A stretch of 64,000 bases of DNA from Raoultibacter phocaeensis (GTDB lineage: Bacteria > Actinomycetota > Coriobacteriia > Coriobacteriales > Eggerthellaceae), in the NCBI RefSeq assembly GCF_901411515.1, contig NZ_CABDUX010000001.1, positions 806,001 to 870,000 of the forward strand. Direction: 5' to 3'. The translations under genes were made by a program, and so were the position numbers. The number at the start of each line of letters is the position of its first letter. The stretch's first letter is position 1. Positions 30,122 to 64,000 of this stretch are shown one piece after another. The notes under the pieces are model-generated. The model was not told the DNA's origin, did not search any database, and saw only the letters and a program-made list of their open reading frames with translations.

Positions 30122-31663
30122 CTACCCCACAACCCGGCCGAAGGCCATGCGCTCGAACTCGGCGGGCGGGAGGGCTGGGGCGACCGCGAATCCCTGGGCG
30201 AGATCGCAACCCATTGCGGCAAGCTGGTCGAGCTGCTCCTTTGACTCCACGCCCTCGCAGACGACCTGCATGCCGAGGCGCTTGGCCATGGCGACGACCG
30301 ACTCGACCACGGCCGAGGCGCGGGGGGAGCCGTCTGGCTGCGGCGCGGCGGGCGGCTTGCGCGGGTCTGCTGCGGGTGCGGGAGCGGCAGGCTGGGCGGG
30401 TTGCGCCGAGCACGGGCCAGGCGGCGCCCCCGGACCTGCAGTAAATTCGGGGGTAGAGGCAAGTGTGGCGACTGGTTCAGGGGCGGCGGCGCGCAGGAAT
30501 TCGCGGTCGAGCTTCAGGGTGTCGGCGCGGACGTCTTTGAGCATGCCGAGGGACGAGTAACCGCTGCCGAAGTCGTCGATGGAGCAGCGATAGCCCGCCG
30601 CGCGAATGCGGTCGACCAGGGCGGGCACGGCGTCCATGTTCTTCGCCACCAGGGTTTCGGTCAGCTCCAGGTCGAGCATGCACGCGGACACGGCGTAGCG
30701 CTTCCGCACCTCGTCGAACTGCGCGAGGAAATCCGGGTCGTCCAAGTGCACGCGCGAGAGGTTGACCGAGATCGGCAGCGGGCCCACTCCCGCGTCGGTC
30801 CACTTTTGCACGTAAGAACACGCCTGCTCGAACACGAACAGGTCGATTCGGGCGACGAAACCGTTCTTCTCGAAGAAGGGGATGAAATCGTCGGGCATGA
30901 CGAGGCCCCGTTCGGGATCGATCCAGCGCACGAGCGCCTCTGCCCCCGCTATCTGGCGCGTGCGCACGTCGAGCTTCGGCTGGAGAAATACCGCGAGCTC
31001 GCCGCTTTCGATGAGGTCGCCCATCCTGTTCTCGAGATCCTTCTCGCGCTGGAGCCTGCAGCGGTCGGCGTCGGAGTAGAAGCCGCACGCGTACAGGGCG
31101 CGGGAATCAGATTCCGTGGCGTTGCGCCGAGCCACGTTGGAGCGGTCGCGCATCTGCACGAGCGAAAGCGACGGATCGTCGATCACGTACACCCCGGCCG
31201 ACACGACGAGGTAGTATGTGCGCTCGGCGCGCTCGTTGAACCGGTTCAGTTCTTCGGACAGCATCTTCATGCGGCAGGCGATTTCTTCGCGGGGTATCGT
31301 TTTCACGAGCAGGACGAAGTGATCGGCGAACGTGCGGCAGAGCAGATCGCCCTCGTCCATCACGTGCAGGATGGCGCGGTGCATGTGCCGCAGCGTCGCA
31401 TCGCCGCGCTCGCTTCCGAACGCGTCGTTTACCAGCTTGAACCCGGCCAGGTTCACGGTCACGAGCATGTAGTCGCCCGGCGAGGCGGCACGGATTAGCG
31501 CGAGCGCCTCGGCTTCGAAACGGGCGGGTGAGTAGCCGCCCGTAACCGGATCGACGTAGGCCAGGTCGTACAGGCGCTTGTTCCTCTTCCGATACGCCTG
31601 GTAGACGACCAATGCAGCACCGAGGGAAAGCGCAAGAACCGCAGCAGCGAACGCACCGCCCAT
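30122..31663 (-). CDS. Cassette 1 gene g: membrane EAL protein with degenerate GGDEF
   Basis: The 513-residue protein has one N-terminal TM segment (residues 4-23), a degenerate GGDEF domain (about 35-190, TFADHF at the active site) and an EAL domain. All EAL catalytic motifs are kept: EALVRW, SVNLSR, LELTE, IDDFGSGYSS, LKLDREF, CEGVES and AQGF. It is therefore probably a working cyclic-di-GMP phosphodiesterase controlled by the inactive GGDEF. An Ala/Pro-rich insert of about 55 residues (with PGAPPGPCSAQPAQPA) splits the EAL barrel between LKLDREF and the ESVVAMAKRLG helix; the loop is normally only a few residues. The start at 31663 is three bases from the stop of the HTH gene. Its paralog is 49906-51531. 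Confidence 0.9.
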   Translation of the reverse strand: MGGAFAAAVLALSLGAALVVYQAYRKRNKRLYDLAYVDPVTGGYSPARFEAEALALIRAASPGDYMLVTVNLAGFKLVNDAFGSERGDATLRHMHRAILHVMDEGDLLCRTFADHFVLLVKTIPREEIACRMKMLSEELNRFNERAERTYYLVVSAGVYVIDDPSLSLVQMRDRSNVARRNATESDSRALYACGFYSDADRCRLQREKDLENRMGDLIESGELAVFLQPKLDVRTRQIAGAEALVRWIDPERGLVMPDDFIPFFEKNGFVARIDLFVFEQACSYVQKWTDAGVGPLPISVNLSRVHLDDPDFLAQFDEVRKRYAVSACMLDLELTETLVAKNMDAVPALVDRIRAAGYRCSIDDFGSGYSSLGMLKDVRADTLKLDREFLRAAAPEPVATLASTPEFTAGPGAPPGPCSAQPAQPAAPAPAADPRKPPAAPQPDGSPRASAVVESVVAMAKRLGMQVVCEGVESKEQLDQLAAMGCDLAQGFAVAPALPPAEFERMAFGRVVG

Positions 31664-31665
31664 CG

Positions 31666-31983
31666 TCAGGACAGGCGCCTGCGCGCATGGATGAGCGCGT
31701 CGAAGTCGCGGAACTGCCGCAGGAGGATCTTCGCCCGCGAGTAGCATTCACGGCCGAACGGCGTCGGGCTCGTACCCTCCTTGCCGCGCACGAGCAGGCG
31801 CGCGCCGATCTCACGTTCGAGGTCGGCGACCGCCTGGGACAGGCCCTGCACCGTGATGTCCTTCTCTTCGGCGGCGGCCGTGAAGCTGCCGCATTCCACC
31901 GCTGCGACGAAGTACTCGATCTGCCTGATCGTCACCGGGCTCCGTTTTCCCTGGCCCGTTTCGAGAATCACCGAGGTGCTCAT
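31666..31983 (-). CDS. Cassette 1 gene f: LysR-type HTH protein lacking an effector domain
   Basis: The 105-residue protein is essentially one winged helix: IRQIEYFVAAVECGSFTAAA, then QAVADLEREIGARLLVRG. Full LysR proteins are about 300 residues, so the ligand-binding half is missing. The frame is intact, and the paralog at 51531-52130 is short in the same way, so this looks like a settled form rather than decay. Its ATG overlaps the TGA of gene e (ATGA), and its stop is followed directly by gene g. It may read out the c-di-GMP or surface state set by e and g, but no such link is shown by the sequence. Confidence 0.85.
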   Translation of the reverse strand: MSTSVILETGQGKRSPVTIRQIEYFVAAVECGSFTAAAEEKDITVQGLSQAVADLEREIGARLLVRGKEGTSPTPFGRECYSRAKILLRQFRDFDALIHARRRLS

Positions 31984-34900
31984 CGGCGCACCGTCCTTTT
32001 GCGCGCGCGGTTTCGGCCGACGGCCGTCCGGCGGGTCGCGCCGATTCCGGGCCGTCCGCCGCTGCCGACAGATACGCGACGGTCGCTGGGCCCGCTGCCG
32101 CCCGAACCGCTTCCGCGCCGCCCGCCTCCCGGGCTGTCACCCGGGCCGTCGGGCTCGCCCTTCCGTGAGAGCCGCCATGCTGCGGCGAGCATGAGCGCGG
32201 CCAGCAGCAAGATGAGCCCGACGAGCGAGAAGGCATCGCCGTCGCCCGTGGTCGCGAGCCGCTTCGCCATGGCGTCGGCGGGATCGGCCGGCTTGGGCGA
32301 GGCGACGGCACCGAACGTCACCTCGATCTCGTGATCGGTCTGGACGTTGGAGAACGCGTAGCTATCGGGCGCGGGGGAAAGCTGCTCGCCGTCGACCGCC
32401 ACGCTCTCGACACGGTACCCCGCGTCGGGGTAGAAGTAGAACGAAGCGCCCGAACCCCGCTCGACGGTCGCGCTCTCGGGCGAAACGGTGCCGTTGCCGC
32501 CGTTCACCCGAGCGGTTATCATGCAGGACGCCGCCTGGCCGTCGGCCTCGAACGTGGCTACCACCTCGGCATCCGCCGTCACGTTGGAAAGCTCGTACGT
32601 GCCGATGGAGACGGGCTCGCCCGACCGCGCCGATCCGGTGTTTTGGATGGAGCCCGAAACGTCCTCGCCGTTCACCGCAAGCGAACTCAGATGGAAGCCC
32701 TCGTCGGCCTTCACCGTATACTCCACCGAACCGCTCAGCGGAACGAACGTCGTACCCGCAGGCGAGATCATGCCGCCTTCGCCCTCGGTCGACGCGCTGA
32801 CCTCGCAGAAATCGACCGGGTGCGGGGTATGCTCGTCCTCTCCGAGCTTCCTGAACTCCACTTCCACCACAAGGTCCTTCGTCACGTTGTCGAGCGTGAA
32901 CCAGTAACCCCCTGCCGAGGTGGCCGTGCGCGCGAACAGCGATCCGTCGGTGATGGGGTACGTGGGAATCTCTGCGCCCTCGCAGGTAACGCGCACGAGA
33001 TCGTAGCCCTCGTCGGGGTAGACATAGAAGGTGTGCGACAGGCCGCTCATGCCCTTGATGGCATCGGGCGTGACCGTGCCGCCGCCCCCCGAAACCGCGT
33101 TCGTCTTCACGCGCACGTTGATATCCACGAGCGGAACCGTCGGATCGGGCTCGGTCGCCTTCCTGAACGACACCTCGACCCGCGTATCGGCGCGCACGTC
33201 GGAAAGCAGGTAGCTCGAACCGCCCATCTGCAGGGCCTTGCCGTCAACGGTCACGAAATCGGTGATCCAGCCTTCGTCCGGAACGATCTCGATGAGGAGC
33301 GAATCGCCATCTTTGACCGTCGTCTCGCCGGACGGCGAAACGGTGCCGCCGCCGGCAGCCCCTACCCCGACCGTAACCGTATGGGCGTCGCGGTCGTCGG
33401 GATCGACGATGCCGCCCTCGGATTTCTCGAACACGGCTTTGATGGTATGGTCGTCATCGACGTCGTCGAAGCGGTAGACCGACGGGGCGTTTGCGGCGGC
33501 ACGCGTGTCGTTGTCGTAGCAGACCGTACCATCGACAACGAGGTTCGCCAGCTCAAAGCCCTCGTCGGGGGCGAGCGAGAACGTGCACGTGGAGCCCTTC
33601 TCGACCTGAACCTCGCCGCATGGCGAGATCGCGCCGCCGCCCTCGCACGCTGCCGTGATGATATGCTTCTCCGCCTCATCCTTCTCGAATGAGACCTCGA
33701 GTTTGTGGTCGCGCACGACGCTCTCGAACGTGAATGCGGAGCCTTCGACCCGATCGGTCACATCGATGCCGTCGACAGTGACTGCCTTGATCCGGTTGCC
33801 CGCGTCGGGCGCGAAGGCAAACGTCTGGTCGAGGCCGTTGGGCACGCGCACCTCGCCTTCGGGCGAGACGGTGCCGCCGACGCCTGCCGATGCGTCGATC
33901 GTGCGCGCAGGGACAGGCGGCGTCATGCCGGGCTTGTACGTGACGGTGACGGTCGTATTCTCGGCGATCGCACCCAGTTTGAACAGGGAGTTCGCAGGCC
34001 GCACCGGCACGCCGTTCACCGTGACCGCATCGACCGTGTAGCCCTCGTCGGCTGCGAACTCGACGGTCGCATCGGTGCCGACCGCGAGCACGGCGGAATC
34101 CAGCGCCGAAGCTTCCCCGCCGTTCAGCTTGATGCGGCCGTGGCCGTTGAGCACCTGCGCCGATACGAGCACGGTTTCTTCTTGGGCGTCGACGGGCTTG
34201 AACGCGGCCCGGATCGCATGGTCGGCGCGCACGTCGGAAAGCGTGTAGAAGTTCGCGCCCAAAAGCTCGATGCGGTTTCCGGCCTCGTCCCCGTCGAGGT
34301 ACACGGCGTCCACGGCGAAGCCCTTGTCGGGCAGCAGGAAGTACGTCTGATCGCTGCCAGCGGGGAGCCGGCTCGTGCCCACCGGGGTGATCTGGCCGCC
34401 CGCGCCCGCCGAGGCCTCGACCGCGAACACGTCCTTTCCGCTGTCGTAGACGACCGCGAACGCGCCGCCGAAGGTTTCGGTCGCGAACACGGCGAAGCGG
34501 TTGCCGTGCTCGTCTGTTTCGACGGCGGCCTCGTAGGTGCGCATGGCGCCCGCCGCATCGATGCCGATGACCGAAACCGTGCCCGCATCCGAAGGCACGG
34601 CGTCGCCGAGCGGGATCGACACGTCGAGGGAACCGAGGAACAGTGGCAGGTTCGACACGTCGTAGCGGCCCAGATCGAGCTGCCACACGCCCTCGACCGC
34701 CTTACCGCAAGCCGCCTGCTGCAGAAGACTGTAGGTAATGGTTTCCTTATCGTAGGCGCTCACCGAAAGGAACCCGAGGTTCCATATCCATTTCCCGTGC
34801 ACGATCACACCGCTCGGCGAGTCGATGAGCGTCTGCTCGCTGTAGTTGTCGCTCGTGACGACGGTTATCGTCTCTTCGGCTTTGTCGCCTGCGGCGTCGG

Positions 34901-35513
34901 TCACGGATACGGTGAACTCGTAGATGCGCTCGTCGACGAGCTCGGCGTTGTACGGATCTTCGTTCAGCGGAAGCGAGATGGCCCCGTCGGCGCTCTCACC
35001 CGCGAAAAAGCTCTCGTTCGCCGCCACTTCTTCGCCATGTACGCCGTAGGCGACGTAGGACCAAGAAAACGCGTAGGGTGCTGTGCCCTCGGCTTTTGCG
35101 CGCAGATCGTAGCCCTCGGAGGCGATCGTGTGCTTCGTCGACCCGAAATCGGGGGTTTTGGATACGATCACGAGCGGCGAGAAGGTGATCACCTCGACGG
35201 ACGTGGATACCTGGTTCGTGGCGGGATCGACAGTGGCGGTTTCGCTCGACACGCCCACCGCAGCGGATTTGGAAGCGGAGCCTTGGCCGGGCACGCCCGT
35301 CGATGCGGAGCCTTGGCCGGGCACTCCAACCGCGACGGATGCGGGGCCTTGGCCGGGTGCGCCCGCCTGCGCGAACGCGAATCCCCGGCCGGGCGCTCCC
35401 GTCAACGCGGAGGCGGCCCCGACGGGAGCGCACGATATGAGCAGGCACACGCACAACAGCGCAGCCAATCTCTTGTGAAAGCGTCTTCCCATACCGTTGT
35501 TGTTCTTCGCCAT
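31980..35513 (-). CDS. Cassette 1 gene e: giant membrane-anchored repeat protein
   Basis: The 1177-residue protein starts MAKNNNGMGRRFHKRLAALL with a signal peptide. Short Gly/Pro repeats follow (several PGQG units, residues 41-80), then an N-terminal β-domain. About ten repeats of the type GGTVSPEG, DQTFAFAPDAG, VTVDG and SFE run from residue 370 onward; this is the Flg_new_2/bacterial-repeat type common in adhesins. A TM segment near residue 1085 (LVGLILLLAALMLAAAW) is followed by a Gly/Ser/Arg-rich cytoplasmic tail ending RKRTVRR. There is no LPXTG motif, so anchoring is by the membrane segment. The paralog at 52127-57682 has the same start, end and repeats but is longer. Confidence 0.85.
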   Translation of the reverse strand: MAKNNNGMGRRFHKRLAALLCVCLLISCAPVGAASALTGAPGRGFAFAQAGAPGQGPASVAVGVPGQGSASTGVPGQGSASKSAAVGVSSETATVDPATNQVSTSVEVITFSPLVIVSKTPDFGSTKHTIASEGYDLRAKAEGTAPYAFSWSYVAYGVHGEEVAANESFFAGESADGAISLPLNEDPYNAELVDERIYEFTVSVTDAAGDKAEETITVVTSDNYSEQTLIDSPSGVIVHGKWIWNLGFLSVSAYDKETITYSLLQQAACGKAVEGVWQLDLGRYDVSNLPLFLGSLDVSIPLGDAVPSDAGTVSVIGIDAAGAMRTYEAAVETDEHGNRFAVFATETFGGAFAVVYDSGKDVFAVEASAGAGGQITPVGTSRLPAGSDQTYFLLPDKGFAVDAVYLDGDEAGNRIELLGANFYTLSDVRADHAIRAAFKPVDAQEETVLVSAQVLNGHGRIKLNGGEASALDSAVLAVGTDATVEFAADEGYTVDAVTVNGVPVRPANSLFKLGAIAENTTVTVTYKPGMTPPVPARTIDASAGVGGTVSPEGEVRVPNGLDQTFAFAPDAGNRIKAVTVDGIDVTDRVEGSAFTFESVVRDHKLEVSFEKDEAEKHIITAACEGGGAISPCGEVQVEKGSTCTFSLAPDEGFELANLVVDGTVCYDNDTRAAANAPSVYRFDDVDDDHTIKAVFEKSEGGIVDPDDRDAHTVTVGVGAAGGGTVSPSGETTVKDGDSLLIEIVPDEGWITDFVTVDGKALQMGGSSYLLSDVRADTRVEVSFRKATEPDPTVPLVDINVRVKTNAVSGGGGTVTPDAIKGMSGLSHTFYVYPDEGYDLVRVTCEGAEIPTYPITDGSLFARTATSAGGYWFTLDNVTKDLVVEVEFRKLGEDEHTPHPVDFCEVSASTEGEGGMISPAGTTFVPLSGSVEYTVKADEGFHLSSLAVNGEDVSGSIQNTGSARSGEPVSIGTYELSNVTADAEVVATFEADGQAASCMITARVNGGNGTVSPESATVERGSGASFYFYPDAGYRVESVAVDGEQLSPAPDSYAFSNVQTDHEIEVTFGAVASPKPADPADAMAKRLATTGDGDAFSLVGLILLLAALMLAAAWRLSRKGEPDGPGDSPGGGRRGSGSGGSGPSDRRVSVGSGGRPGIGATRRTAVGRNRARKRTVRR

Positions 35514-35514
35514 G

Positions 35515-36090
35515 CTAATTCGCCACCAAAATCGTGAGTTTCGCGCCTGCCCGCCCGACGAGATCCTCGGTTTCGGGATCGTGGGCCGAGAACAGCGCCG
35601 TGCATTCGTATTCGCCGGGATCGAGATCCTGATCGAGCTTCGCCTTCTGGATGTGGTGATTCGGCTCGATCATGCCTGAGCGGAACACGAGCTCCCCCGT
35701 ATCGTCGCGGGTTATGTCCACCTGCATGAGGTAGCGGTTGCCCGGAACGTTCTCGATGCGCAGCTCGCCTTCGGAGAGCCCGTCGGCGAACTCCACCTTC
35801 GAGGTGATGGAGATGTTGAACATGCCCTCCTCCACCACGCGATCGAGCTCGGCCTGTATCTCTTCCTGCGTCTTGTTCTCCAGCTGGCCGAACTCTGCGT
35901 TCGGATCGCGCAGGGAACCGCCCGTGCACGATCGGACGAGGAGAAGGAGCGCGACGATGACGAGCACGACGGCCACGCCGATGAGCACCCTGCGGCGGAT
36001 GTTCGCGCGGCGGGCTTCTTCGGTTTGTTGCCCGTCGGGCGCACCGTCTTTTGGCTGCTCGCCGTATGCGGTGCCGTTCGGCTCGTTCAT
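35515..36090 (-). CDS. Cassette 1 gene d: single-pass membrane protein of an unnamed family
   Basis: The 191-residue protein has a short cytoplasmic N-terminus, a TM segment (about residues 30-50) and an outer domain of about 130 residues. The start of that domain reads NPNAEFGQL-like, then TQEEIQAELDRVVEEGMFNI. Later come ENVPGNRYLM, DDTGELVF, and a closing AKLTILVAN. Four proteins of this kind occur in the window (genes b and d of each cassette). The d type shares IEPNHHIQKA; the b type has IKPDSYLE. Similar small β-domain proteins occur in other Gram-positive surface loci. No function is known to me; a helper or anchor for the secreted partner is a guess. Confidence 0.75.
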   Translation of the reverse strand: MNEPNGTAYGEQPKDGAPDGQQTEEARRANIRRRVLIGVAVVLVIVALLLLVRSCTGGSLRDPNAEFGQLENKTQEEIQAELDRVVEEGMFNISITSKVEFADGLSEGELRIENVPGNRYLMQVDITRDDTGELVFRSGMIEPNHHIQKAKLDQDLDPGEYECTALFSAHDPETEDLVGRAGAKLTILVAN

Positions 36091-36124
36091 GGTTCGCTCC
36101 TCCTCTCGGTTCGTTCAGTCGATG

Positions 36125-36155
36125 CGGCCGGCCTGCGGGGGAAGCGGGCCGGCCG
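36125..36155 (-). promoter_or_regulatory. Hairpin between cassette 1 genes c and d
   Basis: CGGCCGGCC (36125-36133) pairs perfectly with 36147-36155 around a 13-base loop, about 20 bases after the stop of gene c. There is no T-run. Cassette 2 has an unrelated strong hairpin at the same place (58447-58485). It may stop or slow most transcription, or protect the 3' end of the gene c message. Confidence 0.5.
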
Positions 36156-36174
36156 TCATGCGTATGCCGCGCGG

Positions 36175-36885
36175 TTAGGCGGTCGGGGCGTCCGGATCCG
36201 GGGTCGGGTCCGGGTCGGGAGTCGGATCGGGGGTCGGATCGGGAACTACGGGGGTGCTGGGCTCGGTCGTGTCGAGTGCCACCGTGTAGGTGATGGTGAA
36301 CGCCTTCGTCGCGGTGCTGAGCGCCTTGTTGAGCTGCGAGTTCGTTGCAGCGACCGTGAAGGCGAGTTCGCCGTTCACGTCTTCCGCACCGTCGACGCCC
36401 GCCGTTTTGGCGACGATCTTCCAATCGAGGTCGGTCGCGGTCTCCGTCACGGTCCATGCCGTGCCGGTCCCGGGCGTGAGCTTCATGTTCATATCGCCGT
36501 AGGTCTCGGTGCTCGTGCTGGCCGTAGTGAGCGCGGTGTCCTTCAGGGCCCATCCGCTTTCAACCTTAGTCTCGGCCTTCGTCACCTTGACGGGGAGCGC
36601 CGACTTGTTGACCATCTTGTACACGCCCGCGGTCGGAACCGTCGTGGTGCCGCCGACGGTGGGCGCGGCGACGGTCATGGTGAGGGGCAGGGCAACGTCG
36701 ATCTGCGCCGCGAACGTTTCCACGAGCACTTCGGTCTTCGCAGGAGCCTCGGCCTTGCCGTCGGGCACTTCGAGCGGACTGGTGTTCATAGTGCCCACGC
36801 CCGCTGCTGCGAACGCCGCGGGCGCGGTTCCGAGCACGAGTGCGGCCGAGAGGGCGGTCGCCAGGGCTATGTTCTTCTTTTTCAT
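36175..36885 (-). CDS. Cassette 1 gene c: small secreted β-domain protein, strong RBS
   Basis: The 236-residue protein has a signal peptide (MKKKNIALATALSAALVL, cut after AFA), one β-rich domain, and a tail of Asp-Pro-Thr repeats (about residues 205-235). The domain carries VDVALPLTMTV-like strands and YKMVNKSALPVKVTKA. The same pattern occurs in gene c of cassette 2 (YNIVNNSVYPIKVASV). AGGAGG lies seven bases before the ATG, the strongest site in the cassette, so it is probably the most abundant product. Hence it could be a fibre or coat subunit that the larger proteins join. The fold and role are inferred; I recognise no named family. Confidence 0.7.
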   Translation of the reverse strand: MKKKNIALATALSAALVLGTAPAAFAAAGVGTMNTSPLEVPDGKAEAPAKTEVLVETFAAQIDVALPLTMTVAAPTVGGTTTVPTAGVYKMVNKSALPVKVTKAETKVESGWALKDTALTTASTSTETYGDMNMKLTPGTGTAWTVTETATDLDWKIVAKTAGVDGAEDVNGELAFTVAATNSQLNKALSTATKAFTITYTVALDTTEPSTPVVPDPTPDPTPDPDPTPDPDAPTA

Positions 36886-36985
36886 GGGTACCTCCTATTG
36901 TCGTATTCCTTCTGGTTTCTCCCCCGTAGCGCCGGCCGCCGGGTTCAGCTGCCGCGGCCACGGGCTTCGTGCTCCGGCATCGGCA

Positions 36986-37567: not shown

Positions 37568-37590
37568 GGTTCGCCTGTCTCCCTTTCCCG

Positions 37591-44366: not shown

Positions 44367-44421
44367 CCCTTGCAGAACCTTGGTAATTGCTTCGCTGCGG
44401 CCCTAGCGGGTCGATGATGAC

Positions 44422-44450
44422 ATAATTGGTTCGAATTAGATCGGTGTCAA
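44422..44450 (-). promoter_or_regulatory. Predicted promoter of cassette 1
   Basis: On the minus strand a perfect TTGACA (44445-44450) is followed after 17 bases by AATTAT (44422-44427). This lies about 55 bases before the start of gene a in an AT-rich patch. No other clear promoter is seen before the next six genes. Confidence 0.6.
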
Positions 44451-46411: not shown

Positions 46412-46478
46412 GGGGCCTCCTCGCTCGGAAGGACGAATAAGGGTATTCTACTCTTCCCTTAGCGAAGATTCTAGCACT

Positions 46479-47150: not shown

Positions 47151-47329
47151 CGGGGGGCTCTGCTGCCGCGGGGGGCTCCGCCGCTGCTCGGGGCTCCGCC
47201 GCCGTGGGGGCCTCCGCCGCTTCTGACCCGATATCGGCGCGACCCGGCATAGCGCCTGACGGCCATCTAGCGCATCAGTGCTCCGAGCGGACACACGTCA
47301 ACGATGGTTTACCGGCGAACCGAACGCGA

Positions 47330-47464: not shown

Positions 47465-47659
47465 CGGACCGCGATCCGCTGGCATGCAAAGCGAGCGTAT
47501 ACGGGTCGCAATCCCCCGTCATACTAGTTGGGCATCAGAGCCATGATGTGCTGTCAAACAAATGTCTGTTACAGTAAAATGAATGTCTGGCAAAGACGGA
47601 AATCGAGCACCGGCCAAAACCATATGCCCAACCGCCGATAATAGAGAAAGGCGCTTGCA

Positions 47660-55100: not shown

Positions 55101-57682
55101 CTGTGCTCTGCCTCCACGTTGTCGAAGCGGTAGGCGCCGTCTGTTATCTGCGCAAGCGGCACGTCGGCGCCGTCGACCACCACGCGGAACAGCTCGTAGC
55201 CCGCAAACGGCACGAACGAAAAGCTCAGCGAGCCGCCTCGAACCACCGAGGTGGACCCGTCGGGCGAGACGATGCCGCCCGCAGATGAGCTCGACGTGAT
55301 GGCGAAGGTTTCGGGGGTGACGGCACCTGGTTCCACCTTGAACGACACCGCTATCCGAGCGTCGGCTTTCACCTCGGCGAGCGTGTAGGTGTTGCCCGTC
55401 GGCTGCACGGGGCTCCCGTTCACGGTCACCTCGTCCACCGCGTAGCCATCATTCGGAATGAGCGAGTACGTTTGAGATCCGCCATCGGCCACGAGCACGC
55501 TACCCGCAGGCGAGATGGAGCCGCCCTCGCCCGCCGAGGCGCTCACGGTATGGAACACGGTTTCGGGCCCGTCTTCGCCCGACTTCGCCTTGAAACTTGC
55601 AGCTATCGTGTGGTTCGCAACCACACCGTCGAAACGGTACGCGCCAGCTTGCGCAGTGACGGGAGCGCCATCGACGAGCACCTGATCAAGCTCGTAGCCT
55701 GCGAAAGGTATGAACGAGAACAGCATCGAGCCCTGGTCGAGCACCGAAACCTTACCTGCAGGCGAGATGGTGCCGCCCGATCCTGCCGAAGCATCGATCG
55801 TATGGACAAGAGGCACGTCGGGGTCGGGCTCGCCCGGCGTCACAGTGCTGAACGATGCATGAACAGCGGTGTTGGCCCGAATGTTTGCAAGCGTGTAGGC
55901 AAATCCCGCTACCTGCACCTTTTCGCCGTTCACCGTGACCTCGTCGAGCTTGTAGCCCTCGTCGGGAATGAAATAGAACGTCTGGCTCGCACCGGCGGCC
56001 AGGCGCGTCGTGCCTGCGGGCGAGATGGTACCGCCCTCGCCGGCCGTTGCGGTGACCGCGTAGTACGTATCATCGGGGGGCACGACCGACGAGCGGGCGA
56101 ACGAAGCTGCAAGCGCGTGGTCGCAGACGATGTTCTCGATGGCAAGCGTCGCGCCATCGCCTTGGGCGACCCGGTGCGTGACATCGGCGCCGTTCAAGGT
56201 GACCGCATCGAGCTCGTAGCCCGCATCGGGCACGAACGCGAACGATGCGGAGCGGCCGTGCGGCACCGTCGCGCTTTCGGGCGAGATGGAACCGCCCTCG
56301 GTGAGCACCTCGGTCTGCACGCTGTGCACGGGCAAGGGCGGCGTGGCTCCGGGAGCGAACGTCACTTCCACCGTCGCATCCGAGGTCATGCACGGCAGCA
56401 GATACGACGTGCCCAGAACCGCGTGCGCCACCCCGTTCACCGTCAGGGAGCCCACCGTGTAGCCCGCGTCGGGCAGAAGCTCGATGAGCGTGGGCTCGCC
56501 GTGCTTCATCGTCGCATCGACCGAAGCGGCGGGCGCGCCTCCCCCCACCGACACCGTGCCGTGGCCGCCGTTCACGACCACATGAAGCGCATGGTCGGTG
56601 GCCTCGTCGCGCGGCTCCTGCTTAAACGTTACGGCGATGCGGTGGTTTGCATCGATGGAGGAGAACGTGTAGGTGTTGCCCGTAAGCTCTGCGGGTGCAT
56701 CGTCCACGAGCACCCCGTCGACCACGTAGCCCGAATCGGGCAGCACCACGTAGGTTTGGCTCGCCCCCTCGGCGAAGGTCGCGGTGCCGAGGGGCGTGAT
56801 CTGGCCGCCCTCGCCCGCCGACGCGTCGATGGTGAAGCGCTCTTTGTCAGGGTGATCGTAGGCGACGGCGAAGGCCCCGAGCGCGTCCGCTTTGAACGTG
56901 ACCGTGCCGCCGGAAACGGAAGCGGAGTACGTGGCGAGCTCGCCCGACGCGTCGAGGCCGATGATCTGCACGTGTTCGCCTTCCGGCGCGCCGGGCGCGG
57001 GAAGCGTCACCTCGGCCCGGCCCACGAGCGCCCGCTTGCCTTCGGGAGCGCCTGCGACCACGGCATGCCATGCGCCCACAACGAGCGCGCCTTCGGCAGC
57101 CTGCTGCAGGTGGGCGTACGCGGCGCACGCGGGATCGAGCGCGTAGGCGGAAAGCGACGCCTGCTTGTGGATGTAGCCCGCCACGCCCACGTCGCCATCG
57201 GAAAGCGTTCGGTACGCGTACTCGTCCGATACGACTAACGTGATGGTCGCGCTGGCCGTTTTGCCGGCGCCATCGGTTACCTCGACGGTGTAGGCGTACT
57301 CGCTTTCATCGGCGAAGGTATCGGTTGCAAGCGGACGGGCAAGCGCCGTTTCGCTCGTGGTACCTTCGTCGGCGAAGGCGGCGTCGGGCTGCCCGTTTAC
57401 CGTGCGGCTCCACGTATAGGAGTACGGCGCGGAGCCTCCCGCAAACGCCACTTTGAGCTCGAAGCCCTTCGCCTCGTCGGCCGTTGCCGCGAAGTCGGGC
57501 GTCTGCTCGTAGATCTTGAAGCCCTCGACCGTGAGCACTTGCACGTCGGTCGACGCGGTTACCGTGTTGCCCGCCTCAGCCGATGCGGGCAGAGGCGCGT
57601 ACGATATGAGCAGGCACATGCACAGAAGTGCCGCCAATCCCTTGTGTAGGTGTCTTCTCATAGCATTCATCCTTCTACCCAT
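52127..57682 (-). CDS. Cassette 2 gene e: giant membrane-anchored repeat protein
   Basis: The 1851-residue protein has a signal peptide (HKGLAALLCMCLLISYAPLP), an N-terminal β-domain, and about twenty repeats of the bacterial-repeat type (ASAGEGG, ISPAGT, FIPDEGY, DEVTVNG, SF). A linker of Pro, Gly and Asp repeats lies at about 1680-1720. A TM segment near the C-terminus (ATLALVLLAIGAAALAAG) is followed by a short basic tail ending RERTVRR. Gene e of cassette 1 has the same start, end and repeat type but half the repeats. The difference suggests repeat gain and loss. It likely reaches far out from the cell, as many repeat-rich adhesins do. Confidence 0.87.
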   Translation of the reverse strand: MGRRMNAMRRHLHKGLAALLCMCLLISYAPLPASAEAGNTVTASTDVQVLTVEGFKIYEQTPDFAATADEAKGFELKVAFAGGSAPYSYTWSRTVNGQPDAAFADEGTTSETALARPLATDTFADESEYAYTVEVTDGAGKTASATITLVVSDEYAYRTLSDGDVGVAGYIHKQASLSAYALDPACAAYAHLQQAAEGALVVGAWHAVVAGAPEGKRALVGRAEVTLPAPGAPEGEHVQIIGLDASGELATYSASVSGGTVTFKADALGAFAVAYDHPDKERFTIDASAGEGGQITPLGTATFAEGASQTYVVLPDSGYVVDGVLVDDAPAELTGNTYTFSSIDANHRIAVTFKQEPRDEATDHALHVVVNGGHGTVSVGGGAPAASVDATMKHGEPTLIELLPDAGYTVGSLTVNGVAHAVLGTSYLLPCMTSDATVEVTFAPGATPPLPVHSVQTEVLTEGGSISPESATVPHGRSASFAFVPDAGYELDAVTLNGADVTHRVAQGDGATLAIENIVCDHALAASFARSSVVPPDDTYYAVTATAGEGGTISPAGTTRLAAGASQTFYFIPDEGYKLDEVTVNGEKVQVAGFAYTLANIRANTAVHASFSTVTPGEPDPDVPLVHTIDASAGSGGTISPAGKVSVLDQGSMLFSFIPFAGYELDQVLVDGAPVTAQAGAYRFDGVVANHTIAASFKAKSGEDGPETVFHTVSASAGEGGSISPAGSVLVADGGSQTYSLIPNDGYAVDEVTVNGSPVQPTGNTYTLAEVKADARIAVSFKVEPGAVTPETFAITSSSSAGGIVSPDGSTSVVRGGSLSFSFVPFAGYELFRVVVDGADVPLAQITDGAYRFDNVEAEHSVRALFAKEGTVPVDPDDPDNPDPDPDPDPDVPTPAYATVHASAGDGGSISPAGDVRVAYGSAQMFLFEPDEGYTLDEVRVDGQKVEVTGFTYTLFNIKADTTIHATFRELGSGEPDPDKPVVYTIASSASRGGSISPLGETRMAAGGSVLYTFVADAGYELDTVKVDGVDITATLDGMSYRFRDLAADHTIEAAFAPASGGGDNPLVFHTVTAEAGEGGTVSPAGAVLVPDGQSQTFTFLPDAGKKVASLTVAGRTFAFTGSSYTLFGVKADTTVRVEFADTDDPPMPMLTHTVTASVEGSGGSVSPEGPVTVLDGASLLVALIADEGYEVDEVKVDGSTVQLGGTSYRVSDVRADTAVTVSFKQVDSPVPDDPFINVNVKIEVGADGERGGIVSPSGSLVMAHGSSQTFYVYPDQGYDLDAVYVNDEPTVAHPLTPATLLSARSAAGAGGGYWFTIDSVTEDMLVRVTFKKLAEDDPVPPPVTVHRVTASATTGGMISPSGTVRVADGGTVSYALKPDAGYHLESLTVGGVEVTDQVANSTYTLTGVSADTVVHAAFAADAGRPDDPTYATVKATAGAGGAISPAGEIRVKRGESLSFTLLPDAGYTVDEVTVNGNPVVPIDFVYTLFDIAGDTEVAATFRALGPDESDPVLPTVHSITASASAGGTVSPLGEVKVAQGTSALFTFVPDEGYGLSRVEVDGSPVAADVFAGGSYRFENVDAGHSIHAVFAPKSVDPPVPNTVTVSASSSEGGAIDPTGEVIVLRGESRVFTMVPDTGYELDTLTVDGRTFEYSGSTYTLFDITADTSIHAAFKQSGGDPGPGPGPGPDPGPGPDLDPDPDPDPNPDLNPDPAGTFFTINVTAAGQGCVSDLSGASSGAVKVAKGASKTFSFVPKAGFEVGTVKVDGAEVPAAAGYTFANVQADHTLEVVFEAQTAPVPNSPGQAINRFAQTGDATLALVLLAIGAAALAAGVAAVAWRRSSTRERTVRR

Positions 57683-57683
57683 G

Positions 57684-58307
57684 TCAGTTCGCCACCAAAA
57701 TCGTCATCTGCACGGCCGCCTGGCCGATCAGTTCTTCTGTTTCCGTATCAAATGCATAGAACACCGCGGTGCAGGGGTACGTTCCCGCATCGAGGTCTTC
57801 GCTGAGCGCCGCCTTCTGGATATGGCGGTTCGGCTCGATCAGGCCCGATGCATACACGACCTCGCCGGTATCGTCGCGCGCGATCTCAACCTTCATGAGA
57901 TAGCGGTTGCCGGGCACGTTCTCGATGCGCAGCTCGCCTTCGGAAGCGCCGTCGGCGAACTCCACGGTGGTTGCGATGGCCACGTTGAACATGCCCTCGT
58001 CTACCACGCGGTCGAGCTCGGCCTGGATTTCCTCCTGGCTCTTGCCGTCGAGCTGCCCCACCTCGGCGTTCGGGTCGCGCGCGCCTGTGGTATCGGAGCA
58101 GGAGCGAAACACCAGCACGCACGCGACGATGAGCGCGATCGCCGCGACGGCGACGGCTACGTAGAAGCCGATCGGGCGACGGCGTTGCTGCGGGTCGGGC
58201 GCAGCCGAGGGCGTGGGAGGCTTATGGTTGAGCGGCGCGGCCGCGTGCTTTCGCGGCGCGGGCTCGGGCCGTTCGATCTGCTGGTTCCCGTCATCTGGTG
58301 CGTGCAT
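57684..58307 (-). CDS. Cassette 2 gene d: single-pass membrane protein
   Basis: The 207-residue protein has a cytoplasmic tail of about 50 residues, a TM segment (about 49-68, FYVAVAVAAIALIVACVLVF) and an outer domain (DPNAEVGQLDGKSQEE, then EEIQAELDRVVDEGMFNVAI, IEPNRHIQKAALSEDLD and closing QMTILVAN). It is closest to 35515-36090. Two bases separate its stop from the start of gene e. The cell role is unknown. Confidence 0.75.
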   Translation of the reverse strand: MHAPDDGNQQIERPEPAPRKHAAAPLNHKPPTPSAAPDPQQRRRPIGFYVAVAVAAIALIVACVLVFRSCSDTTGARDPNAEVGQLDGKSQEEIQAELDRVVDEGMFNVAIATTVEFADGASEGELRIENVPGNRYLMKVEIARDDTGEVVYASGLIEPNRHIQKAALSEDLDAGTYPCTAVFYAFDTETEELIGQAAVQMTILVAN

Positions 58308-58343
58308 GGCGTTTTTGATTCCTTTACTTCGTTTTCATCGTGC

Positions 58344-58363
58344 GATGTTTCACGTGAAACATC
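58344..58363. promoter_or_regulatory. parS-like site (ParB-binding palindrome)
   Basis: GATGTTTCACGTGAAACATC is a perfect 20-bp palindrome. Its inner 16 bases, TGTTTCACGTGAAACA, match the widely conserved bacterial parS consensus (TGTTNCACGTGAAACA), the loading site for ParB. It lies between genes d and c of cassette 2. parS sites usually cluster near the replication origin. No parA/parB gene is in the window. Confidence 0.85.
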
Positions 58364-58446
58364 CGTTCGTGTTTGCGCGGGTCGAGGGCCGGGGGCCGCG
58401 GCGTGCGGGCGGTTGGGGCTCGCAGTCGGGCTGAAGCCCGGCAACC

Positions 58447-58485
58447 CCGCGGCGCGCCGACTGTGAGCCGGAGAGCGCCGCGGGC
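58447..58485 (-). promoter_or_regulatory. Hairpin between cassette 2 genes c and d
   Basis: CCCGCGGCGC (58447-58456) pairs perfectly with 58476-58485 around 19 bases, starting about 10 bases after the stop of gene c. A second small stem (CGGGCTTCAGCCCG) follows. There is no T-run. Cassette 1 has a hairpin at the same place. Confidence 0.5.
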
Positions 58486-58494
58486 GGGAGCTGT

Positions 58495-59142
58495 TTATGC
58501 AACCGGATCGGGATCCGGAGCCGGAGCGGGCTCGGCAACCGAGGTCGCGGCGATGGTGTACTGCACCTTCACGGCCGTGGTAGCCGCATCCTTCACCGAT
58601 TTGATCTGCGAGAGCGATCCGGCGACGGCGATGTTCTTCGTCGTGCCCGCATCGGCGGTTTTCGCGTCGACGATCCAGTCGGTCAGATCCTGCGAGGTGG
58701 TCTTCACCGTAAGGGGCGCAGCCGCACCCGTCATCTGCAGCGTCAGGTTGATGTCGCCGATCTTGGCGGTGCTTTCGCTCTGATCGGTCAAGGCGGTTTC
58801 GGAAATGCCCCAGTTGCCAGCTTCGTCGGCTGTGGCGATCACGCTAGCCACCTTGATGGGGTACACCGAGTTGTTCACGATGTTGTAGTTGGTGGGCACG
58901 CCCGAAAGCGCGCCGCCCTCGGCGGGGCCGACTACCTTGATCTGCAGCGGCACGGTAACCGAGATGTTGGTTGCCACGGTTTCCACCATGACGGTGGTGT
59001 CACCCGTGCCGTCGCCCTGGATGTTGCTGTCGGCCGAGGTGTCGGCATTGGTGTTGCCGTCGGCCGCGAACGCCACGGGAGCGGCTCCAAGGGCGAGCAG
59101 GGCGGTAAGCGCCACTGCGGTTGCTGTCTTCTTCAGTTTCAT
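58495..59142 (-). CDS. Cassette 2 gene c: small secreted β-domain protein, strong RBS
   Basis: The 215-residue protein has a signal peptide (MKLKKTATAVALTALLAL, cut near AFAADG) and one β-rich domain. This keeps the pattern of its cassette 1 counterpart: VTVPLQIKVVGP, YNIVNNSVYPIKVASV, INLTLQMTG. The tail is short and Pro/Asp-rich. AAGGAGGAACA directly precedes the ATG, the best ribosome binding site of cassette 2. The gene is followed by a hairpin. I infer a high-copy secreted subunit; no family name is known to me. Confidence 0.7.
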   Translation of the reverse strand: MKLKKTATAVALTALLALGAAPVAFAADGNTNADTSADSNIQGDGTGDTTVMVETVATNISVTVPLQIKVVGPAEGGALSGVPTNYNIVNNSVYPIKVASVIATADEAGNWGISETALTDQSESTAKIGDINLTLQMTGAAAPLTVKTTSQDLTDWIVDAKTADAGTTKNIAVAGSLSQIKSVKDAATTAVKVQYTIAATSVAEPAPAPDPDPVA

Positions 59143-59245
59143 TGTTCCTCCTTAGGTCTTCTTCACGTTCTCTTTCTGTGCTGGTATCGGTTCGGGTTCT
59201 TCCATCAACCACCCCGATCCTGCACGAGTTGATCTTCCATACGCA

Positions 59246-59806
59246 TCACTTCCTCACGATCAAGGTCACCTTGGCGGCGGCCTTGCCCACTTCCTCGAGG
59301 GAATCGGGATCGAGGGCGGTGAACGTGGCGGTGGCCACGTAGTTGCCGGGTTCGAGATCCTGGTTGAGCGTTATGCTTTCGATGTAGCTGTCGGGCTTGA
59401 TGGCTTTCGATTCGTACACGGTCTCGCCCGTATCGTCGAGCGTGATGTCCGCTTTCATGACGTAGCGGTTGCCCGGCACGTTTTCGATGTAGGCGTTGCC
59501 CGCCGACTCGCCGTCTGCGAACTCGATCACGCTCACGATGGAAATGTTGAACATGCCCTCCTCGACGATGCGGTCGAGCTCGGCCTGCATTTCCTCCTGC
59601 GACTTGTACGGCGCCTGCCCGCTTTTGGCGTTCGTATCGAAGATGTCGCTCGGCTGGCCGAGAAACAGCCATGCCGCAACGCCCGCCGCAATGAGGACGA
59701 GTACCGCTATCAGGGCGATCAGGATGCGCTTGCGCGAACCGCGGGGGCGATCGTGCGTATGCGCGGGTTCGCGATCATGGTCTTGTTCGAAGTCGGACGT
59801 GCTCAC
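59246..59806 (-). CDS. Cassette 2 gene b: single-pass membrane protein
   Basis: The 186-residue protein starts with GTG at 59806, overlapping the stop of gene a (GTGA), with AAAGGAGA upstream. It has a His/Asp/Arg-rich cytoplasmic part, a TM segment (about 28-50), then DIFDTNAKSGQAPYKSQEE, EEGMFNISI, ENVPGNRYVM, IKPDSYIE and KAAAKVTLIVRK. It is the clear counterpart of 36986-37567. The b and d types have stayed distinct across the two cassettes, so each has its own job. Confidence 0.75.
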   Translation of the reverse strand: MSTSDFEQDHDREPAHTHDRPRGSRKRILIALIAVLVLIAAGVAAWLFLGQPSDIFDTNAKSGQAPYKSQEEMQAELDRIVEEGMFNISIVSVIEFADGESAGNAYIENVPGNRYVMKADITLDDTGETVYESKAIKPDSYIESITLNQDLEPGNYVATATFTALDPDSLEEVGKAAAKVTLIVRK

Positions 59807-62800
59807 AGAGTCTCCTTTATCGGTTCGAAGGTGTAGGTAAGGTGCGCGAGGGGCACCGCCTCGTCCAGCAGGGTCACCGGGGTGCCCGCTCCAGCCGTCA
59901 GGCCGAACTGCACGGGCAGGGTGCCGGGGCCGTCGTCGCTCGAAGCTCCGATGACGAACGAGGGGCGCGACCCAAAGATGAGGTCGTTGCCGAGCGCGAT
60001 GCGCACGCTGTTGCCGTCGAGCGCATCCATGCTCACGGCCACGTTGGGCCACGAGGCGCGGTCGGGGAACGCGAGCGGTGCGCCCGCCTCATCGGGATCG
60101 CACGTCATCGAGGCGATGCGCAGCTTGACCGGGGTGCGCGATGCGAACGCGGCGTCGGTCAGCCCGGCGGACGTCAGCGCACCGGTCTCGCCGTCGGCCG
60201 TGACCTTGAGCACCGGCTTCACGGGCGCGGCCACGCTGATCACGGGCGTCCACTGCGCGTACAGCGTGACCTCGTTCTGCCCGGCTTGCGGGAGGTCGCG
60301 CACGTTCGCCCCGTCGGCGTAGGCGCTACCCGAGCCGTCGGCCGCGGTGTTCCAGCCCGAAAATGCCCAGCCGTCGCGCTTGAACGAGCCCGCGGGCAGG
60401 TCGGCCCGCACGCCCCAGTTGAGCTCGAGGTCATCCATGGCGCCGGTGGCGTCCGCGGCGTTCTTGTCGAACTTGACCGTGTAGGCCGAGCCGCGCCACT
60501 GGGCGTAGAGGGAAAACGCGCTCGTCGTCGAGACGAGGTTCAGCACCTCTGCCCCGTCGGCGAACGAGTCGCCCGAGCCGTCGGCCTTCGTGTTCCAGCC
60601 GGCGAACTCGTAGCCCGAGCACGAGAAGGGCGTGGGCGCGAGGTTCGCCTTCGTATCGTAGGTGAACGTCTGGGTCATCGAGCCCGTGGTGGACACCGTG
60701 GCCCCTTCCGGCGCGTTCGGGAAGAAGAACGCGAAGTACGTGTTGGCCTCCCACTTGGCATAGAGGGTCACGGTACCCGACTCGGCGAGGTTCTTCACCG
60801 GGTCCTTGTCGGGGCGCAGGGTGCCCGTGCCGTCGGCGTTCTCCGCCCAGCCCTTGAACGTGTAGCCCGTGCGCTCGTAGGCGTTGGCGGCCAGGGCCTG
60901 CGGGTCGGCGTCGTAGGTGAAGGTCTGGTCGGACATGGATCCGCCGGTGAGGCCCTGATCTGCCGTGGCGTTCGGGTCGAACTTCACCGTGTAGGTGTTC
61001 GCCTGCCACACGGCGTGGAGGGTGGCGGTGCCGCCCGGGTCGCTCGTGAAGTTGGGCGTTGTCAGGGTCTGGCCCGCGGAGTACTCGGCGGCCGTCGCGC
61101 CCGCTGTCTCCGACCAGCCGAGGAAGGCGTAGCCCTTGCGCGACGGCTCGGCGGAAGGCAGCGTCACGTCCTGGTCGAAGGTGGCCGCCATCTGGGCGGG
61201 GACCTCGCCAAGCGAGCCCGCGCCCGCGTCGAACTTCACCGTATAGGAGTTCGCGGACCACTGCGCGTGCAGCGTCACGGGCGCGCCCGTCGAGAGGCCC
61301 GTGGCCACGCCTGCCCCGTCGGCGAAGACCGTGCCCGAGCCGTCGGCGGCGACCGTCCAGCCTGCGAACGCGTAGCCGGTCTTGGAGAAGCCGAGCTCGG
61401 CGACCGCGGGCAGGTTCTGGCCGGCCGCCTCGTAGGTGTAGGAGCGCGACGTGAGGATGCCCGCGCCCGCGCCGGGGTCGAGCGTGACCGTGAAGCAGTT
61501 GGCGGTCCACTTGGCGTGGAGCGTTACGCCGTCCACGGGCACGGTGTCGGATGCGAAGTTCCAGGCGCTCCCTGCGAACGAGGAGCTCGCGTACCATCCC
61601 CCGAACGTGTAGCCCGCGCGGGCGGGCGCGCCGGGATCAGCGACGAGCTCGCCGTAGCCCACCGTCTGGCCCTCGACGTCGGAGCCGCCGTTGGAGTCGA
61701 ACGCCACGCTGTACTCGTTCTGCGTCCACTGCGCGTAGAGGTGGAACTGGCCGCTCGTTGCCAGGGGCGAGGACACGAGGGCCTTGTCGGCGTAGTTCGT
61801 ACCCGTGCCGTCGGCCGCCGTGTTCCACTTGTCGAACGTCCAACCCGTGCGCGCAAACGCATTGGGCGAGAGCGTCTTGGTAGTCTCGTTGTAGCGGAAG
61901 CTTTGCGTGGAGGTGGAGGAGTCGCCCGGGTGGTTGGCATGGAATACCACGGTGTAGGGGTTGGCCTCCCACACGGCGTAAAGCGTCACCTTAGCGCCCT
62001 GCACCTCGGAGAGGTCGCGCACCTGGGCGCCGTTCGCGTAGGTGGCCGTCGTCGCGCTGGGGTCGGTCGACCAGCCCAAGAACGTGTAGCCCGTGCGCGA
62101 GTAGCCGCACTGCGAGAGGTTGGCGGCCACGCCGTAGGTCATGCCCTGGTCGGCCATGCCGGTGCCGCTGCCGCCGTTGGCGTGGAAGGCGACGGTATAC
62201 GTGTTGGCCTTCCACGACGCGGTGAGCGTGAGGGCGTCGGCGGGCATGGTGCCCGAGCTGAAGTTCCACGCGCTGCCGTCGGGCTGGTTCCACGACTGGA
62301 ACGTGTGGCCCTTCTTGGACACCGAGGGCGGGGCGTAGGAGTCCGCGAGCAGCGAGCCGTAGGGGACGGTCGCCGTCTTCTGGGTCGCGCCGTCGGAGAC
62401 GTACTCGAGGGCGTAGCTGTTGGCGCTCCACTGGGCGCGCAGCATGACCGTCGCCCCGGCGACCGCCGTGAGCTCGTTGACCGACTGCTTGTCGGTGTAG
62501 GTTCTGCCCGCGTCGTCCTTCCACCCGGTGAACGTGTGGCCCGTGCGGGTGAAGCCGTTCGGAGTGAGGGTCTTCGCGGTGCCGTACACCATGGACATGG
62601 GGGCCGTCGAGCCCGTACCGCCGTTCGCGTCGAACTGGATCGTGTAGGTGCTCTTCCAGTTGGCGGTGTACGACTTGTCGCCCGTCGATCCCGCAGGGAT
62701 GGTCACCGACGTCTGCGGCGTCGTGCCGTTCGAGCCGGTCCAGCCGACGAAGACGTGGTTCGCGCGCGTCGGGGCCTTGAGCGCGATGGCGGCCGACTCG

Positions 62801-64000
62801 ATCGTATACGCGCCCGGGTTGCCGGTAGCCGTTCCGTCGCCGAGGTCGTATTCGATCGTGTAGGTGACGGGCGTCCACTTGGCGTAGAGCGTCACGGTGG
62901 AGCCCGCGGTCGTCGTGAGGTTGTTGACCGACTGCTTGTCGGCGTAGGTGACGCTGCCGTCAGCCGAGGTCGCCCAGCCCGCGAAGGCGTAGCCCGAGCG
63001 CGTGAAGCTGTTGGCCGTGAGGTTCTTCGCGGTGCCGTGCACCATGGACATGGACGCCGTCGTGCCCGTGCCGCCGTTGGCGTTGAAGGCGATGCTGTAG
63101 TTGTTCGCCCAGTTGGCGGTGTACGACTTGTCGCCCGTCGATCCCGCGGGGATGGTCACCGACGTCTGCGGCGTCGTGCCGTTCGAGCCGGTCCAGCCGA
63201 GGAACGTGTGGTTCGCCTTCGTGGGGGCCTTGAGTGTTATGGCCGCCGACTCGACCGTGTATGAGGTCGGGTTGCCCGACGCCGTTCCGTCACCGAGGTC
63301 GTATTCGATCGCGTAGGCGACGGGCGTCCACTTGGCGTAGAGCGTCACGGTGGCGCCGGGCACGGTTGACAGGTTGTTCACCGACGCCCCGTTCGAGTGG
63401 ACCACCGCGCCGGCGGAGGACGTGGCCCAGCCCGCGAAGGTGTAGCCCGAGCGCGTGAAACCGTTCGCCGTGAGGTTCTTCGCGGTGCCCTCGACCATCG
63501 ACATCGACGTCATGGAACCGGTGCCGCCGTTGGCGTTGAAGGTGATGGTGTAGTTGGCCTTCCAGTTGGCGGTGTACGATTTGTCGCCCGTAGAGCCCGC
63601 GGGGATGGTTACGCTGGTCTGCGGCGTCGTGCCGTTCGAGCCGGTCCAGCCCGCGAAGGTGCAGTTGGCCTTTGTGGGGGCCTTGAGCGCGATGGCGGCC
63701 GACTCGATCGTATACGCGCCCGGGTTGCCGGTAGCCGTTCCGTCGCCGAGGTCGTATTCGATCGTGTAGGTGACGGGCGTCCACTTGGCGTAGAGCGTCA
63801 CGGTGGAGCCCGCGGTCGTCGTGAGGTTGTTGACCGACTGCTTGTCGGAGTAGGCCACGCTGCCGTCAGCCGAGGTCGCCCAGCCCGCGAAGGCGTAGCC
63901 CGTGCGGGTGAAGCCGTTGGCGGTCAGGTTCTTCGCGGTGCCGTGGACCATTGACATGGAGGCCATCGTGCCTGTGCCGCCGTTGGCGTTGAAGGCGATG
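59803..64000 (-). CDS. Cassette 2 gene a: giant InlB-repeat secreted protein (partial)
   Basis: The frame is open to the window end, so the N-terminus is missing; about 1398 residues are seen. The visible part is nearly all InlB_B/Flg_new repeats of 70-80 residues (FDANGGTGS, GYTFAGW.T.ADG, TLYAKW). Upstream (62600-64000) they form 151-residue blocks that are almost identical in DNA. The C-terminal 170 residues are a β-domain (APVKPVLKVTADG, then RTPVKLRIASMTC) like the end of gene a in cassette 1. No membrane anchor or sortase motif is present. Its stop overlaps the gene b start. Confidence 0.85.
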   Translation of the reverse strand, partial: IAFNANGGTGTMASMSMVHGTAKNLTANGFTRTGYAFAGWATSADGSVAYSDKQSVNNLTTTAGSTVTLYAKWTPVTYTIEYDLGDGTATGNPGAYTIESAAIALKAPTKANCTFAGWTGSNGTTPQTSVTIPAGSTGDKSYTANWKANYTITFNANGGTGSMTSMSMVEGTAKNLTANGFTRSGYTFAGWATSSAGAVVHSNGASVNNLSTVPGATVTLYAKWTPVAYAIEYDLGDGTASGNPTSYTVESAAITLKAPTKANHTFLGWTGSNGTTPQTSVTIPAGSTGDKSYTANWANNYSIAFNANGGTGTTASMSMVHGTAKNLTANSFTRSGYAFAGWATSADGSVTYADKQSVNNLTTTAGSTVTLYAKWTPVTYTIEYDLGDGTATGNPGAYTIESAAIALKAPTRANHVFVGWTGSNGTTPQTSVTIPAGSTGDKSYTANWKSTYTIQFDANGGTGSTAPMSMVYGTAKTLTPNGFTRTGHTFTGWKDDAGRTYTDKQSVNELTAVAGATVMLRAQWSANSYALEYVSDGATQKTATVPYGSLLADSYAPPSVSKKGHTFQSWNQPDGSAWNFSSGTMPADALTLTASWKANTYTVAFHANGGSGTGMADQGMTYGVAANLSQCGYSRTGYTFLGWSTDPSATTATYANGAQVRDLSEVQGAKVTLYAVWEANPYTVVFHANHPGDSSTSTQSFRYNETTKTLSPNAFARTGWTFDKWNTAADGTGTNYADKALVSSPLATSGQFHLYAQWTQNEYSVAFDSNGGSDVEGQTVGYGELVADPGAPARAGYTFGGWYASSSFAGSAWNFASDTVPVDGVTLHAKWTANCFTVTLDPGAGAGILTSRSYTYEAAGQNLPAVAELGFSKTGYAFAGWTVAADGSGTVFADGAGVATGLSTGAPVTLHAQWSANSYTVKFDAGAGSLGEVPAQMAATFDQDVTLPSAEPSRKGYAFLGWSETAGATAAEYSAGQTLTTPNFTSDPGGTATLHAVWQANTYTVKFDPNATADQGLTGGSMSDQTFTYDADPQALAANAYERTGYTFKGWAENADGTGTLRPDKDPVKNLAESGTVTLYAKWEANTYFAFFFPNAPEGATVSTTGSMTQTFTYDTKANLAPTPFSCSGYEFAGWNTKADGSGDSFADGAEVLNLVSTTSAFSLYAQWRGSAYTVKFDKNAADATGAMDDLELNWGVRADLPAGSFKRDGWAFSGWNTAADGSGSAYADGANVRDLPQAGQNEVTLYAQWTPVISVAAPVKPVLKVTADGETGALTSAGLTDAAFASRTPVKLRIASMTCDPDEAGAPLAFPDRASWPNVAVSMDALDGNSVRIALGNDLIFGSRPSFVIGASSDDGPGTLPVQFGLTAGAGTPVTLLDEAVPLAHLTYTFEPIKETL
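62600..64000. repeat. 453-bp tandem DNA repeats in gene a of cassette 2
   Basis: The stretch GTACGAYTTGTCGCCCGT recurs at 62668, 63121 and 63574, exactly 453 bp apart, with the surrounding sequence nearly identical. One unit is 151 codons, two InlB_B repeats. The array runs off the window end. Such arrays change copy number by recombination and are hard to assemble. Confidence 0.85.

Follow-up and report, generated by a model that had tools for sequence, protein, structure and literature searches.

A multi-copy surface-protein cassette of Raoultibacter phocaeensis headed by giant genes with G runs, a candidate for slipped-strand phase variation

The region analyzed here (the window) is a stretch of 64,000 nucleotides, C1:806001-870000, where C1 is one of the two contigs of the 3.86 Mb genome of Raoultibacter phocaeensis, which belongs to the family of Eggerthella, Gordonibacter and Adlercreutzia. 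Seven genes occur in identical order, all on the minus strand, at 30122-44366 and again at 49906-64000; this was reported in an earlier note on the same DNA and is confirmed by the open reading frames (ORFs) and their domains. The features are given below from the head gene downstream, in window coordinates unless a contig position is stated.

Cassette 1
44422-44450, minus: promoter-like site TTGACA-17-AATTAT, 5' of the head gene (consensus match only)
43755-44366, minus: gene b1, 5' part; signal peptide and N-terminal domain, 203 aa, stopping shortly past the G run
43781-43789, minus: run of nine G (C9 on the plus strand) that splits b1 into two frames
37591-43635, minus: gene b1, remainder, a 2014-aa ORF; LRR_5 (BspA-type) and Listeria-Bacteroides (Flg_new) repeats, D-like C-terminal domain
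36986-37567, minus: gene c1; single-pass membrane protein with an extracytoplasmic CE-family domain (c type)
36175-36885, minus: gene d1; small secreted protein with one D domain
35515-36090, minus: gene e1; second CE-family membrane protein (e type), predicted transmembrane (TM) helix and Ig-like beta-sandwich
31980-35513, minus: gene f1; secreted InlB-B-like repeat protein (Flg_new_2) with a LATTG-type sorting signal
31666-31983, minus: LysR-type HTH protein without effector domain, its start overlapping the f1 stop
30122-31663, minus: membrane GGDEF-EAL protein; GGDEF degenerate (FADHF), EAL catalytic motifs kept

Cassette 2
C1:871741-871749, beyond the window: run of nine G of gene b2
59803-64000, minus: gene b2, 3' part; Flg_new repeats, D-like C-terminal domain, continuing to C1:873289
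59246-59806, minus: gene c2 (CE family)
58495-59142, minus: gene d2 (small D-domain protein)
57684-58307, minus: gene e2 (CE family)
52127-57682, minus: gene f2; Flg_new_2 repeats, FAQTG-type sorting signal
51531-52130, minus: LysR-type HTH-only protein
49906-51531, minus: degenerate GGDEF-EAL protein

Domain searches recovered in both copies the content first described, namely two repeat giants, a small secreted protein, two membrane proteins, a LysR-type HTH-only protein and an EAL protein. The arrangement of starts and stops is also alike in both: gene f and the HTH gene, and the HTH and EAL genes, overlap or abut, and the joins in the HTH/EAL region of the genome's own cassettes do the same where they were read. 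The EAL gene of copy 1, previously given a start at 31747, most likely starts at 31663 instead, judging by its reading frame and the HTH stop. The matching hairpins described for the two copies were not borne out, terminator-like sites being fewer than in shuffled sequence. The site at 44422-44450 is the sole minus-strand promoter-like site in 29700-46600 (three found, 2.6 expected). Since only one such site precedes cassette 1, within which no convincing terminator was found, a single transcript, and with it polarity, appears plausible from sequence. The stretch that separates the two cassettes (45113-49180) encodes an AAA/DUF4143 ATPase as well as a Schlafen AlbA_2 protein, the latter apparently split into two ORFs.

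The number of cassettes is larger than the two originally counted, because the edge of the window hides the rest. The genome holds four full cassettes, three in tandem on C1 and one on the other contig (C2), and two partial cassettes of one membrane protein and one D protein each (C1:1248801-1251833 and C2:1739776-1743844, with the pair at C2:1742543). The CE membrane family has ten clear members in this genome, in four pairs and two singles. Position 64000, taken earlier as the end of the second copy, is not a boundary, the head gene starting at C1:873289, about 3.3 kb past the window; this gene is itself preceded by a further giant. The partial type at C1:1248801 is conserved in Gordonibacter and Eggerthella, and the partial cassette on C2 lies downstream of a pectate-lyase-like adhesin.

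The proposal that the cassettes encode a surface structure is well supported by signal peptides, wall-sorting signals, repeat domains and the homology of the giant's end to the small protein. Over their last 165 residues the giants align with d, at hhalign probabilities of 97-98.5% and best HMM E values of 7e-24 to 3e-11, the HMM match being weaker or absent for some giants. Members of the d family often carry GWxx and DWxx motifs and a final YTV/WTV strand; the AlphaFold2 model of d, from six sequences, reached a pLDDT of 36 and gave no fold. The membrane protein is predicted to consist of an N-terminal helix and an Ig-like sandwich (pLDDT mostly about 90 or above there), and the model resembles CopC-like, PapD-like and pilin folds only weakly. 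Gene f ends in LATTG or FAQTG, a hydrophobic stretch and a basic tail, and the genome has six sortases. Searches of Pfam, NCBIfam and the PDB yielded no convincing relative of c, d or e, and no family members were found in viral contigs.

The relatives compared include Adlercreutzia sp. ZJ304, A. murintestinalis, Eggerthella sinensis, Enteroscipio rubneri and Gordonibacter sp. Marseille-P2775. Conservation of the seven-gene order in Eggerthellaceae, raised in the earlier note, holds for the core and, within the flanks that could be read, not for the rest: giant, c, d, e and second giant keep their order in Eggerthella, Gordonibacter, Enteroscipio and Adlercreutzia, and the HTH and EAL genes were not seen beyond the core. 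The order giant-c-d-e is also kept in Anaerotruncus and in another Oscillospiraceae genome. Of 140 genomes from the bacterial family, 51 gave CE-family matches (E<=0.001; many of the matches are weak). In a tree of 86 membrane-protein sequences the c type (before d) and the e type (after d) separate and both phyla occur in each group, which suggests that the c and e roles are old, within the limits set by long branches and few alignment columns.

One intercistronic gap of the window holds, at 58346-58361, TGTTTCACGTGAAACA, a perfect parS palindrome, which also occurs in the c-d gaps of five other loci. In Adlercreutzia sp. ZJ304, six of the 26 parS copies of the genome lie at cassette c-d gaps, far above chance. 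The palindrome may act as a site for ParB or form a hairpin in RNA.

All four full cassettes of R. phocaeensis end in an HTH-only LysR gene followed by a GGDEF-EAL gene. The EAL domain (Pfam E 9e-61) keeps the EAL, NLS, ELTE, DDFGSG, K and EGVE motifs in the four copies; with the GGDEF site altered to FADHF and the EAL motifs kept, a phosphodiesterase is likely. After its DREFL motif the EAL domain is split in all four copies by an insert rich in Pro and Ala, some 60 residues long or longer. It has been suggested that the amount of the surface structure is set mainly by cyclic-di-GMP through this EAL protein, a view that gains from the kept EAL and degenerate GGDEF sites in every copy and from another GGDEF/EAL protein at 989-4090. 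We consider it rather unlikely, as the HTH and EAL genes were not found adjoining the core in relatives and the surface proteins have no detected c-di-GMP-binding part. Neither gene followed the five-gene core in the relatives that keep it (flanks of 1.2-2.9 kb read at several loci), so the pair looks like an addition of this lineage. The general tie to c-di-GMP proposed before is left unsupported, a cassette with HTH and EAL genes having been found only in R. phocaeensis itself.

The clearest control device of the cassette is the G run in the head gene, which had been overlooked. The 203-aa ORF at 43755-44366 had been taken for a separate gene; it forms one gene with the 2014-aa ORF at 37591-43635, split between frames at nine G, and it carries the signal peptide that the longer ORF lacks. 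In computed variants of b1, runs of 7, 10 or 13 G give one ORF of about 2258 aa, and nine G give 203 aa. All five head giants of the genome have nine G in their 5' part: the heads of cassettes 1, 2, 3 and 4 are broken, always at the nine G, and the extra giant before cassette 2 is in frame. ORFs computed for 7-14 G leave four giants unbroken at 7, 10 or 13 G; for the fifth giant the unbroken lengths are 9 and 12.

The genome has 25 runs of at least nine G, 24 of them exactly nine and none of 10 or 11, with the G on one strand per chromosome arm throughout. That five of the 25 should fall in the 5' parts of the five giants has a probability of about 1e-8 (assuming uniform spread and approximate region sizes). 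Several of the other 20 lie at genes for secreted proteins or sugar transfer; runs of at least nine G are present in a LicD-like gene, a glycosyltransferase, a pilin-like giant and several secreted proteins. Further runs in the window are found at 1302-1310 and 27430-27438, and an operon of type IV pilus type at 15507-28632 (minus strand) has as its first product a 1429-aa protein that begins with a pilin methylation motif and whose gene holds an in-frame run of nine G.

The near uniformity of run length bears on how the split genes are to be read. If the G runs contained sequencing or assembly errors, the genes would be intact and non-switchable, and the 24 of 25 runs of exactly nine G would be in keeping with this, as would the finding that one added G puts four of the five giants in frame. 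The same added G breaks the fifth giant, however, errors would not position long runs in giants at a probability of about 1e-8, and in four other species, each assembled independently, homologous giants carry runs of G8-11, in both on and off states. Error as the full explanation is thus unlikely. Since nearly all runs of this genome are of nine G, the consensus may have shortened runs that are longer, and the on and off states given for R. phocaeensis are provisional.

The 2.0 Mb of Adlercreutzia sp. ZJ304 contain only six runs of at least eight G, four of them in cassette giants (at loci of 44-51% GC), where G8 is on, G9 off, G10 on and G11 off. The giant of A. murintestinalis has G10 and is in frame, an Eggerthella giant of 3.8 thousand codons has G10 and is out of frame, and a Gordonibacter giant has G11 near its start and is out of frame if a weak start codon is assumed. 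Counted across paralogs and species, a run of G8-G11 lies in the 5' part of 12 giants; four of these are in frame and eight out, which is the one third expected of random frames. In eight of the 12 the run is surrounded by a similar N-terminal domain; in the other four it lies elsewhere in the 5' part, suggesting separate origins. Many relatives have the cassette and no G run.

Nine G in a row make a slippery site for both ribosome and polymerase, and four of the genome's own genes have an equal offset, so that a programmed frameshift or a site of transcription slippage with a fixed ratio of short to long product has to be considered. Paralogs and relatives would need shifts in different directions, which means that no one programmed frameshift serves them all, and four giants are in frame without any shift; this explanation is very unlikely. 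Transcription slippage could still add some of the long form in any state, as a side effect. Decay of the cassettes into pseudogenes in a repeat-rich region would be compatible with tandem copies and with frameshifts in four of five head genes. It is extremely unlikely nonetheless, given downstream ORFs of 0.9-2 thousand codons with no other stop, breaks that all lie at G runs, and genes c, d and e that are intact in every copy with conserved residues.

MutSL normally limits slippage of such runs. No match to MutS_I or MutL_C was obtained in the R. phocaeensis genome (99.2% complete), each of which was found in 11 of 14 control genomes. The random distribution of frames, the differing shifts, the lack of MutS_I and MutL_C matches and the 20 other G runs all fit slipped-strand phase variation. 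We therefore favor, with a probability of roughly three in four, the reading that the cassette encodes a wall-attached surface platform whose giant is switched by slipped-strand changes of the G run. It builds on what can be read from the sequences, namely the 5' G runs, their differing lengths and frames in relatives, the c-d-e core and the giant end homologous to d.

Gain or loss of G near the 5' end would turn the giant LRR/InlB-repeat protein on or off at random. When on, the giant would be exported and form the outermost, presumably adhesive part of the platform. Its C-terminal D domain, along with the small D protein, would keep it at the wall with the help of the membrane-tethered Ig-like proteins c and e and the sortase-type wall protein f, as has been proposed for WxL clusters. 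The giant gene stands at the head of a closely spaced series of genes, so an off-frame run may reduce downstream expression as well, by polarity; in the lineage of R. phocaeensis the genes affected would include those for the HTH regulator and the putative c-di-GMP phosphodiesterase. A more ambitious version, tentative and in our view doubtful, has c, d and e as an unnamed assembly system of Coriobacteriia and Clostridia, in which D polymerizes as a fiber or layer with the giant as its tip and the G run switches the operon by polarity, in the lineage of R. phocaeensis thereby coupling the surface state at random to the c-di-GMP level.

The gut Eggerthellaceae have been studied for their metabolism of drugs and steroids, and their contact with host and phages is little known. 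Random switching of a giant surface protein would be a bet-hedging trick. If the favored reading is true, giants switched by G runs would offer escape from phages and immunity; they would also make clonal cultures mixed and mislead strain comparisons and assemblies. The CE and D families, unnamed and kept together across two phyla, present a new surface platform that is open to test.

The closest known system in plan is the WxL (csc) cluster of Bacilli, which comprises a small WxL protein, a large WxL protein, a DUF916-DUF3324 protein (WxLIP) and an LPxTG protein (PMC10599100, PMC9772566). Both systems have a one-domain small protein, a large repeat protein ending in such a domain, a membrane-tethered Ig-like protein and a sortase-type protein. 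They differ in phylum and in the domain common to giant and small protein, which is D here and not WxL; moreover, the cassette has two membrane proteins with an N-terminal TM helix, whereas the helix of WxLIP is C-terminal. The Pfam WxL model (PF13731) had no match at E<=10 in R. phocaeensis or in the Hungatella and Anaerotruncus carriers, both Bacillota, d had no WxL match when compared with all of Pfam, and c and e had no Pfam match to DUF916 or DUF916-DUF3324. With no match to these models, the cassette is WxL-like in plan and not a member. Chaperone-usher pili offer a more distant likeness, having a tip adhesin with a C-terminal pilin domain and a PapD-like chaperone where the cassette has a giant with a subunit-like C-terminal domain. 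The Ig-like membrane proteins weakly resemble FaeE, SafB, PsaA and MyfA in structure (best E about 3e-3), but the cell is monoderm and there is no sequence match.

Reversible surface variation in the same family is documented for Eggerthella lenta, whose capsule varies in phase by large inversions (PMC13174815; no mention of homopolymers or poly-G was found in that paper). The E. lenta system works by DNA inversion on capsule genes, as opposed to the G-run slippage on protein cassettes proposed here. No report of slipped-strand switching in Coriobacteriia was found in the open-access literature. Contingency loci of this kind are established elsewhere, with 29 poly-G loci in Campylobacter jejuni (PMC4965091), 54 variable runs in Cutibacterium acnes (PMC4746626) and G-run phase variation in Gardnerella (PMC11287997). 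The G or C runs there, as here, lie in or before genes for surface factors and have lengths that span all frames; what differs in R. phocaeensis is that the run stands at the head of a surface cassette of several genes, of which the genome has multiple copies.
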